A DNA stretch of 35,784 nucleotides from positions 1 through 35,784 of the forward strand of contig JAFIGH010000051.1 in assembly GCA_020831525.1 (NCBI GenBank), in the 5' to 3' direction. The position numbers and the translations under genes were made by a program. This stretch comes from Opitutales bacterium (lineage in GTDB: Bacteria; Verrucomicrobiota; Verrucomicrobiia; Opitutales; Oceanipulchritudinaceae). Numbering within the stretch: position 1 is the first letter of the stretch; each line of letters opens with the position of its first letter. Under the pieces are notes generated by a model that saw only the letters and a list, made by a program, of their open reading frames with translations, was not told where the DNA came from and did no database searches. Positions 23,990 to 26,880 of this stretch are shown here, one piece after another.

Positions 23990-24404
23990 CGGGCATGGCG
24001 GGCACCTGTGCTTCCAATGTGAGGGGCGCGTCGCCTGACGTAGGTTACGGTCTCGGTCGAGTCGACTCGCCGTCTTCCGTTCCGTGTGCCGCCCGCCCTG
24101 TCTGTTGCCTCCGCACGGTCGCCGAAGAGCCGGGTGATCTCCTCGATAGGCTCCGGCCTTCGTTCCTTGCGCACTTCCATTTGGATCTTCTTCCACTCCA
24201 CGCCAAGCAGTCCATACTGCCGGTACCCCAAAAAAACCATCCGGACCCTTCCACGTAGCGACGGAGCCACGCCTCCGTCGACCAAACCATCCCGAAACCC
24301 GCCATCGTGTCGTCCAACCCCTGTTCCTACAACCTGAGCCCCCCCACGGAGAGATCCGGCAGCTTCTCGGAGTTGAAGCGGCACGACTTGCGAGCGCCCG
24401 GCAT
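23990..24404 (-). pseudogene. Frameshifted gene of unknown family downstream of a two-TM protein
   Basis: Reading leftward from an ATG at 24402-24404, the first frame gives MPGARKSCRFNSEKLPDL, is lost at a run of seven G (minus strand, about 24338-24346), returns as DDTMAGFGMVWSTEAWLRRY, and is lost again at a run of seven T (about 24232-24238). It continues in another frame as GYRQYGLLGVEWKKIQMEV and RKERRPEPIEEITRLF. Joined, these make one plausible protein; separately they make none. The breaks fall on homopolymers, so either the gene is decayed or the assembly carries indel errors. It begins eight bases after the stop of the 88-residue membrane protein gene, as in an operon. I do not recognise the family. 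Confidence 0.4.
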
Positions 24405-24805: not shown

Positions 24806-26104
24806 TCAGGGCGACGGCGTGCGGGCGAGCCGGAAGCCGCCGGCACCCCAACGTTGGTCCGTGACGCCGCTGAGGCGGTTCGAACTGAAGCCGACCCTGC
24901 AGACGATCTCCCAGCTGTCAATACTGCCGCCGCGGTAGAAGCGGCGCGTGCCGGCGTCGTTCTTATCCCAGCACCACTCCCAGAGGTTGCCGGTCATGTC
25001 ATACAGCCCCAACTCATTCGGCGCTTTCTCTCCAACAGGCCAGGTGCTGGGGTTAGGTCCAACTCCGCAGGCGCCGCCGACGCTGTTGTCCAGATACCAA
25101 CCCACCGCATCCAGGTCGTTGCTCCCGGCGTAAGTGTAGCCTTGGCTCCGGTTACCGCCCCGCGCTGCAAATTCCCACTCCGCTTCCAAGGGAAGGCGGT
25201 AGCCGTTGGCTGACAGGTTCTGCGAAATCGCGGTGTGCCAATGTTGGCCGCTGCGATAGACATCCCCGTCGACCCTGTAAACCGGTGCCAGCCCCTGCAT
25301 CTCGCTCTTGGCATTGCACCACTTCACCACATCGAGCCAATTGACGGAGTCGACAGGATGATCGTCCGTGCAGCCGCGACCTGCGGAGGGCGGCCAATCA
25401 TACCCGTTGGCTTCGCCCCATGCTTGCACCGCCTGCCACTCCTTCCACGTTACTTCGTAGCGGCCGATGTAGAAGGTGTCCACCGTGCGCGTGCCCATGC
25501 TCATGTCGAGGGTGCCGCCCTCGACGAGCACCATGTCCCCGTGAACAGGCCCTCTCAGGTCAGTCTCCTCGTGCCAGCTCAATGTGGAGGCATCCATGAA
25601 CGAACGCTCGCCCGGCGTTCCGCCGTCCGAGTACCAAGTCCAGTGGTCCGGGACAATCGGGCTGTACCAGTAGATCCAAGGGTAATGGAGCCCGGAAATC
25701 CACCCCCAGGATGCGAGCGCCGAATCGTAGATGTGGAATCCATCCGTGCTCGCTCCCTCACAGTACAACCAGCCGTGTTCGGCATGGTAAATCCAATCCC
25801 CGTCCTCAACAAACCTTCCGAACCACTCCAGATACAGCCAGTCCTCACCGAGGTGTTCGGCGTCACGCCACAAATCGGATGACGGCCCTCCCTGCGCCGC
25901 CACCGTCCAGGTTTCCACGTCGGTCGACTCCGCCAACTCATACTGGATGCCGGAATCGGTCGCCCAACTGACGCGGTGCGTTTCCGCGGCATCCGGCTCG
26001 TCGACCGGAAGAACAATCGGCCCATCGGCAAGAGCGGCCAACGGCAACGGCAGCAAAACAGCAAGCCAGCCAAGAATGAAGGTGCGAAGAGAGGTCGTTT
26101 TCAT
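24806..26104 (-). CDS. Secreted SUMF1-domain protein with Trp/Tyr-rich module
   Basis: From the ATG at 26104 the protein has 432 residues. A signal peptide (about 1-26, hydrophobic FILGWLAVLLPLPLAALA) is followed by a beta-sandwich-like stretch with GIQYELAESTDVETW. Next comes an aromatic module at about 80-165 (GDWIYHAEHGWLYCEG, WGWISGLHYPWIYWYS), of a kind seen beside SUMF1 and surface domains in Verrucomicrobia. The SUMF1/FGE-sulfatase domain runs from about 190 to the end, with MVLVEGG, IGRYEVTWKEW, YRLPLEAEWEFAARGG and MTGNLWEWCWD. Near the end, the position of the first catalytic Cys of formylglycine-generating enzyme holds Cys, but the second holds Ser and the end reads GFRLA instead of GFRCA, so true FGE activity is unlikely. 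It probably has a surface or binding role. Both neighbours are broken or mobile. Confidence 0.85.
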   Translation of the reverse strand: MKTTSLRTFILGWLAVLLPLPLAALADGPIVLPVDEPDAAETHRVSWATDSGIQYELAESTDVETWTVAAQGGPSSDLWRDAEHLGEDWLYLEWFGRFVEDGDWIYHAEHGWLYCEGASTDGFHIYDSALASWGWISGLHYPWIYWYSPIVPDHWTWYSDGGTPGERSFMDASTLSWHEETDLRGPVHGDMVLVEGGTLDMSMGTRTVDTFYIGRYEVTWKEWQAVQAWGEANGYDWPPSAGRGCTDDHPVDSVNWLDVVKWCNAKSEMQGLAPVYRVDGDVYRSGQHWHTAISQNLSANGYRLPLEAEWEFAARGGNRSQGYTYAGSNDLDAVGWYLDNSVGGACGVGPNPSTWPVGEKAPNELGLYDMTGNLWEWCWDKNDAGTRRFYRGGSIDSWEIVCRVGFSSNRLSGVTDQRWGAGGFRLARTPSP

Positions 26105-26117
26105 CGTGTTTCCTTCC
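26105..26117 (-). promoter_or_regulatory. Ribosome binding site that fixes the SUMF1 gene start
   Basis: On the minus strand GGAAGGAAACACG directly precedes the ATG at 26104, putting AGGA six bases from the start codon. The reading frame stays open for 49 more codons upstream, but that extension has no signal peptide at its beginning, while a clean signal peptide begins at 26104. Confidence 0.6.
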
Positions 26118-26281
26118 ATGTAGAGGCCATTGTCAATCGCAGCCACGCCCCCCCCCGAAACCGCCGCAAGGCAAAGCCATCCCGAATAGAGCGGACCAAG
26201 AATAGATAGAGTGGATCCAGTAAAGCCGCCCGCATTTGAATACGTCAACATCGTTTTCGTAAAAACGACGTAACGGGTCCG

Positions 26282-26425: not shown

Positions 26426-26426
26426 G

Positions 26427-26441
26427 GTCGTCCAGCCCGCC
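26427..26441. repeat. Short direct repeat, copy 1 (pairs with 26802-26816)
   Basis: GGTCGTCCAGCCCGC here recurs with one change as GGTCGTCCGGCCCGC at 26802-26816. Each copy is followed by Ser/Arg-codon-like GC-rich sequence ending in the second repeat (26510 and 26815). The copies bracket the GIY-YIG gene. The first copy abuts the broken end of the integrase remnant. Confidence 0.5.
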
Positions 26442-26509
26442 TCCGCTCTGCGGGCTTTCCGCCTTCGCTCCGCGAGCTTCAGCGGACACGGCGGCGGGGG
26501 CCATTCATC

Positions 26510-26527
26510 GCTTTCGCTGCGCTCAGC
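26510..26527. repeat. 18-base direct repeat, copy 1 (pairs with 26815-26832)
   Basis: GCTTTCGCTGCGCTCAGC is identical to the sequence at 26815-26832. This copy covers the last codons of the leftward GIY-YIG gene, and the other lies just before its start, so the gene sits between identical repeats about 305 bases apart. Confidence 0.6.
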
Positions 26528-26777
26528 GGAAGCGCTTGTTGGCGAACGCCTTTCCGGATGCGGATTTGAGGTACTTCTCCAGAGCACGGGCGGTTTCCTT
26601 GCCGCGAACGGCATGGTAGCTGAGGATCCGCCAAGGCCGGAGGGGGCGGGTGGCGATGCAGTTTCCTGCGTTGTGCGCGGCGAGGCGCGCGCGCAAATCT
26701 TCCGTAAACCCGACGTAGGTGGCACCGGGCTTTCGTTCACTCTCGAGGATGTAGACGTAATAGAAATGGCCTGCCAT
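26523..26777 (-). CDS. GIY-YIG domain protein (UPF0213-like putative endonuclease)
   Basis: The 84-residue protein begins AGHFYYVYILESE and continues TYVGFTEDLRARLAAHNAG, which gives the GIY-YIG core as YYVYIL and YVGFT with the conserved Arg of the following helix (DLRARL). The later PWRILSYHAVRGKETARALE segment and basic C-terminus (SGKAFANKRFR) match the short YhbQ/UPF0213-like group. The fold is a nuclease fold, but the cellular role of these small proteins is not settled. The start at 26777 is chosen because the domain begins there; upstream sequence in frame is part of a palindromic repeat. The gene is enclosed by direct repeats and starts within an inverted repeat, so it may travel with a repeat element. 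Confidence 0.85.
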   Translation of the reverse strand: MAGHFYYVYILESERKPGATYVGFTEDLRARLAAHNAGNCIATRPLRPWRILSYHAVRGKETARALEKYLKSASGKAFANKRFR

Positions 26778-26841
26778 TCGTAGCTGAGCGCGGAATTCGA
26801 GGGTCGTCCGGCCCGCTTTCGCTGCGCTCAGCTTCGAATGG
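26774..26841. repeat. Imperfect inverted repeat spanning the GIY-YIG start
   Basis: The arm at 26774-26791 (CCATTCGTAGCTGAGCGC) is the reverse complement of the arm at 26824-26841 (GCGCTCAGCTTCGAATGG) at 17 of 18 positions, with a 32-base loop. The first arm contains the GIY-YIG start codon, so a transcript of that gene could fold its translation start into the stem. The right arm overlaps the second copy of the 18-base direct repeat. Confidence 0.65.
26815..26832. repeat. 18-base direct repeat, copy 2 (pairs with 26510-26527)
   Basis: This copy is identical to 26510-26527 and lies upstream of the leftward GIY-YIG gene, partly inside the inverted repeat at 26774-26841. The paired layout resembles REP-type intergenic elements. 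Confidence 0.6.
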
Positions 26842-26880
26842 CGGAGGGTGAGGGACTCCACGCCTTTCCTGTAAAATCCT

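Follow-up and report, generated by a model that had tools for sequence, protein, structure and literature searches.

Two-hairpin units behind the CCA ends of tRNA and tmRNA genes, probably moved by a GIY-YIG nuclease, and a likely decayed member in an Opitutales bacterium

The described systems closest to the locus presented here are the REP and REPIN sequences with their RAYT nucleases of the Y1 (HUH) type. REP and REPIN sequences are short imperfect palindromes that are arranged in inverted pairs and spread as dispersed non-autonomous copies, with the RAYT nuclease gene linked to some of these copies (PMC8049555, PMC3733652). As far as GIY-YIG nucleases are concerned, the portions of the 2006 superfamily survey covered here report no link to tRNA ends or to a hairpin unit (PMC1564403), and the open-access literature, preprints excluded, yielded no description of a tRNA link for the GIY-YIG genes treated below. 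These genes belong to a seemingly undescribed family of very small mobile elements, in which a GIY-YIG nuclease replaces the usual transposase. The stretch of DNA analysed, 35,784 nucleotides of contig JAFIGH010000051.1 of an Opitutales bacterium and called the window hereafter, is likely in our judgement to contain a decayed member of a group of short mobile elements whose insertion site is immediately behind the CCA at the 3' end of tRNA and tmRNA genes, always with the same orientation.

The family unit comprises two hairpins, H1 and H2, and the features of the window locus, in the direction of transcription of the nuclease gene, are the following.

26839..26863, minus strand: tRNA-Ser 3'-end stub ending in CCA, directly at the hairpin
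26773..26842, minus strand: hairpin H1, CCATTCGAAGCTGAGCGC...GCGCTCAGCTACGAATGG, with the layout of the family H1
26814-26832, minus strand: upstream copy of the 19-nt direct repeat CGCTTTCGCTGCGCTCAGC, 19/19 identical to the downstream copy
26802..26814, minus strand: GGGCCGGACGACC, a short piece common to both flanks of the gene
26523..26777, minus strand: GIY-YIG nuclease gene of 84 aa, with ATG at 26777 and TGA stop at 26523
26509-26527, minus strand: downstream copy of the 19-nt direct repeat, overlapping the stop codon of the gene
26457..26552, minus strand: a second two-hairpin unit, degenerate, behind the gene
26426..26438, minus strand: GGGCTGGACGACC, downstream counterpart of the short flank piece

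The sequence-only reading of this DNA had described a perfect direct repeat bracketing the gene and an inverted repeat over the gene start. Both are real, with their dimensions amended from 18 to 19 nt for the former and from 17 of 18 to 18 paired positions in arms of 19 nt (26773-26791 and 26824-26842) for the latter, and both the tRNA stub and the second unit had escaped that reading. The 5' arm of the window H1 opens with the CCA of the stub and its 3' arm enters the ATG of the gene (ATGGCAGGCC), with a stem that is the CCATTC/GAATGG of the lineage; the longest open frame for the gene starts further upstream, with the GTG at 26861. When folded as DNA, the hairpin region reaches -22.1 kcal/mol (z -4.7, 0/200 shuffles as good), and covariance model R1 matches over H1 at 26707-26841 with an E-value of 0.037. 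The best R1 match of the whole window is the degenerate unit behind the gene (E 7e-4, filters off), where the opposite strand is also matched at 26458-26549 (E 4e-3), and the H2 of the window copy is barely recognisable. Compared with the 3' end of the tRNA-Ser on contig C12 of the same genome, the stub agrees at 19 of 25 positions, which is the best value in the window (runner-up 16/25), and ARAGORN found no full tRNA in the window. The TGA stop falls inside the downstream 19-nt repeat, and Bradyrhizobium copies have similar junctions of a stop codon with an H2 remnant. By eye, the upstream repeat resembles the apical and 3' part of H2 in units of the CGC type (AGCTGGAGCGCAGCGGAAGCG, locus L246), an internal piece of that hairpin; the 19-nt repeat is neither an element end nor a target-site duplication. 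The window copy is degraded, consisting of the stub, H1, a gene start within the 3' arm of H1 and a decayed unit behind, and the long branch of its protein on the protein tree may be due to this decay. An empty version of the window site was sought in relatives and none was found, their flanks not being syntenic. Elsewhere in the window, a dispersed repeat of about 31 nt at 24252-24284 has many near-exact copies in two genomes of the same genus (G001 and G002), and the gene to the left of the unit, at 24806-26251, has several diverged relatives within these two genomes.

A genome-wide search for the repeat, which had been proposed as a check, returned three occurrences of the 19-mer in 5.3 Mb with up to two mismatches (control 0), namely both window copies and C12:6302-6320, and the latter adjoins another GIY-YIG gene (C12:6401-6613) in the same relative position as in the window. 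The short flank piece GGGCYGGACGACC also has three sites in this genome, 26802-26814 and 26426-26438 of the window and C184:675-687, the last beside a paralogue with 89% identity to the window gene. The two other non-UvrC GIY-YIG genes of the genome each lie immediately behind the 3' end of a tRNA-Ser gene of the same orientation, and the one on C184 was apparently joined at the tRNA CCA through a deletion.

The same adjacency is found across a wide range of bacteria. Scanning GTDB genomes for the protein yielded 542 relatives, and the loci of the best 80 of these 542, chosen by similarity to the window protein, were examined; they come from Alphaproteobacteria, Verrucomicrobiota, Lentisphaerota, Desulfobacterota, Planctomycetota, Acidobacteriota, candidate phyla and others. 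Of the 64 testable loci, those with at least 600 nt upstream, 57 have a tRNA or tmRNA gene of the same orientation within 420 nt upstream of the nuclease gene, versus 5 of 2065 random points in these loci, and because the loci were chosen by protein similarity this figure describes the present subgroup and not GIY-YIG proteins at large. Eleven RNA types, tmRNA included, precede the gene, and in relatives the genes preceding the homologues are those for tRNA-Ala, Arg, Phe, Gly, Lys and tmRNA. Several loci that have no full tRNA nearby possess a tRNA or tmRNA 3' stub like that of the window (L045, L048, L052, L072, L088, L091 and L101); such a stub is present in the window and at a minority of the loci, and most units have none. 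No family members were found in plasmid and phage records, which suits an element bound to the tRNA genes of the chromosome; viral contigs contained three relatives, none with a tRNA gene nearby, and searches with PADLOC and PHROGs gave chance-level matches only. Direct repeats framing the gene were considered as a defining feature of the family and rejected, as repeats of at least 20 nt occur in only about 14% of loci (control 1.5%).

Between the tRNA CCA and the gene lies a conserved leader of about 90-110 nt that contains the two hairpins. H1 has the form CCAnnC-TTC-GC ... GC-TTC-GnnTGG, its stem opening with the tRNA's own CCA, and is followed by CAGGCC or CAAGCC; H2, of the form GCCCTCC-GAA-GC ... 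GC-GAA-GGAGGGC, is inverted relative to H1. The hairpins occur in two arrangements: in order A, H1 (CCAnnCTTCGC...GCTTCGnnTGGCAGGCC) is followed by a reverse-complement copy of its 5' arm and then by H2 (GCCCTCCGAAGC...GCGAAGGAGGGC), and in order B, H1 encloses H2. In alignment A2, 95.1% of the cells of H1 and H2 are paired versus 83.5% upon shuffling and 28-43% in slid controls, and 44 cells are changed on both sides versus 12.8 in shuffles (0/500 as high), with strong covariation also for an alternative pairing of the first with the third box. Single strands of family units fold far better than their shuffles. Rfam had no match over the unit, the nine sources searched giving tRNA and tmRNA and, elsewhere, sub-threshold matches.

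Genomes, many of them metagenome bins, were searched with a covariance model of the leader, whose genome E-values are rough. Units were found in 13 of 55 relatives and in all of ten further genomes chosen for holding the gene. In the latter ten, 49 sites were inspected, of which 32 start exactly at a tRNA or tmRNA CCA and 6 lie shortly after such a gene, as shifted copies or in tandem; the other 11 are without one, although some of them follow stubs; 21 of the 32 copies at tRNA ends are without a GIY-YIG gene. Units have the same orientation as the tRNA, and a genome contains about 1-20 copies, carried by only some of its tRNAs. The similarity between copies of one genome is 89-94% in Mesorhizobium neociceri and reaches 93% in Bradyrhizobium, and such near-identical copies are found behind different tRNA isotypes with flanks that are 43-56% alike, which is chance level. 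Occupancy also varies at single sites of Bradyrhizobium: with matching flanks, the tRNA-Tyr site holds either of two unit types, both of which occur with and without the gene, and the tRNA-Met site holds a unit in about 10 of 30 cases, other DNA directly following the CCA in the rest. A third tRNA site carries a unit in 29 of 29 species examined, with two alternating types, and at two such loci (L248 and L260) a remnant of one type lies behind the other, as if a newer unit had landed at the CCA ahead of an older one. Bradyrhizobium genomes (L274-L303 and others) also contain many separate tRNA-Met 3' ends of about 47 nt, apparently attachment-site remnants of islands.

These properties recall REP sequences and their RAYTs in that H1 and H2 are mutually inverted imperfect palindromes with internal loops (TTC/TTC and GAA/GAA), gene-free copies are dispersed and the nuclease gene accompanies some copies. 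The earlier suggestion that a REP-type unit carries a GIY-YIG nuclease gene of its own fits the family in these respects, including the preponderance of gene-free copies; it had overlooked the specific target at the CCA end, visible in the window as the tRNA-Ser stub, and the 19-nt repeat is not the element's end. Unlike in REP/RAYT systems, the nuclease is of the GIY-YIG and not of the Y1 type, in most rows of A2 the H1 foot, CCA/TGG, gives way to CA(A/G)GCC and has no GTAG or CGTC tag, and the units are found strictly at tRNA or tmRNA CCA ends and not in general intergenic spread or in hundreds of copies.

The window protein matches the Pfam GIY-YIG domain PF01541 at 5.1e-12, better than the curated cut-off, and consists of this domain alone. 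Positions Y9, G23, R31 and E67 are invariant and Y21 exceeds 90% in an alignment of 49 sequences; the AF2 model (pLDDT 95) has Slx1 and UPF0213 as its closest folds, and 1zg2 and Slx1 are the best matches by sequence and by fold. Slx1 is a structure-specific nuclease. Stand-alone UPF0213 and SLX1-like proteins share the minimal fold and the conserved catalytic positions, whereas the present group is tied to tRNA ends and the two-hairpin unit. Units and genes co-occur among the 55 related genomes (Fisher p between 4e-5, for strong gene matches, and 1.5e-4), and in 4 of the 13 relatives with units no gene of this GIY-YIG family could be detected. No Y1_Tnp was found in five unit-bearing genomes (G057, G058, G062, G063 and G064), hence these genomes do without the mobiliser known from REP sequences; since the window's genome has many Y1 genes, the argument does not apply to it. 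That genome has 49 Y1_Tnp matches, many of them partial, and thus an expanded HUH family.

The close attachment to tRNA genes could instead reflect a service to the host, with the unit acting as a tRNA 3' trailer in RNA protection, processing or termination and the gene exploiting the tRNA promoter. Units are indeed always co-oriented with the tRNA and start at its CCA, their structure is conserved, and the 29/29 occupancy of one Bradyrhizobium tRNA site could mean a host function. However, the two variable H1 pairs of 115 distinct elements, many of them related, comprise 226 Watson-Crick, 0 G-U and 4 unpaired cases out of 230, and A2 contains only 3 one-sided (G-U) cells, unlike a selected RNA; the missing G-U pairs suggest selection on DNA hairpins or cruciforms. 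Together with the restriction to some tRNAs per genome, the variation in presence and type at a single site and the near-identical copies behind different isotypes, this makes a trailer quite unlikely. The GIY-YIG domain and the same Bradyrhizobium site with and without the gene between species would also suit a free-standing homing nuclease that cuts element-free tRNA alleles and spreads through gene conversion, the hairpins being recognition sites or insertion scars. GIY-YIG homing endonucleases resemble the present proteins in these two traits, but the latter have no NUMOD or other DNA-binding domain and are not intronic. Homing requires flanking homology, yet the isotypes are of 11 kinds, a tree of poor resolution implies at least 29 isotype switches among the proteins, and most copies are gene-free yet dispersed between non-homologous sites, so we take homing to be unlikely.

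Passive carriage by integrase-type islands attaching at tRNA genes would explain why several loci and the window hold just an attR-like tRNA 3' stub, but it is very improbable given the intact tRNA genes before most units, with no duplicated tRNA 3' end, and the 90-nt units that are nearly identical behind different tRNAs of one genome. Integrative elements with tyrosine recombinases share the tRNA 3' end as target; unlike them, the present units insert after the CCA, so that the tRNA need not be rebuilt, and measure about 90 nt without a recombinase. For a chance meeting of an ordinary UPF0213-like gene with unrelated repeats, one may cite the rarity of exact repeats in the window's genome, but GIY-YIG genes adjoining all three repeat sites, the tRNA stub and the adjacency statistics already contradict it and leave it a negligible probability.

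The locus is thus best explained as a tRNA-end-targeting, REPIN-like element whose GIY-YIG nuclease is probably what moves it. Dispersal and CCA targeting are established by sequence comparison, which covers the exact CCA boundary, orientation, covarying structure, site polymorphism and gene co-occurrence; the role of the nuclease as mover, the strand chemistry and copying in rather than cut-and-paste are what we infer. The mobile unit would be H1 plus H2, to which some copies add a stand-alone SLX1-like GIY-YIG gene just behind H2. The nuclease would recognise the hairpins, as cruciforms or single strands, together with the tRNA end and cut at that end, the unit would be copied in beside the CCA with the tRNA staying intact, and gene-free units would be mobilised in trans, in the way RAYTs move REPINs. 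We lean towards regarding this as a new class of bacterial transposable element, with a two-hairpin unit that takes the universal CCA end of tRNA genes both as its target and into its own hairpin, a stand-alone, structure-specific GIY-YIG nuclease as its mover and non-autonomous copies mobilised in trans. If so, a GIY-YIG nuclease performs a task that in REP elements is known only from HUH (Y1) enzymes, and the CCA end, common to nearly all tRNAs, offers a safe harbour in every genome. A widespread but unannotated set of repeats, and of small 'GIY-YIG nuclease' genes that follow tRNAs in many phyla, would thereby obtain a mechanism, and the system would be a candidate tool to place DNA at tRNA ends.

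Small GIY-YIG genes of another, more distant group were observed behind tRNA-Met (L029, L019) and tRNA-Asn (L020, L021, L031, L036). Repeated tRNA 3' ends frame these genes, and in these ends the part with the anticodon stem and variable loop is replaced by a hairpin of the TCCCGC...GCGGGA type. At four other loci (L051, L085, L111 and L115), array-like repeated hairpin units lie directly upstream of the GIY-YIG gene.
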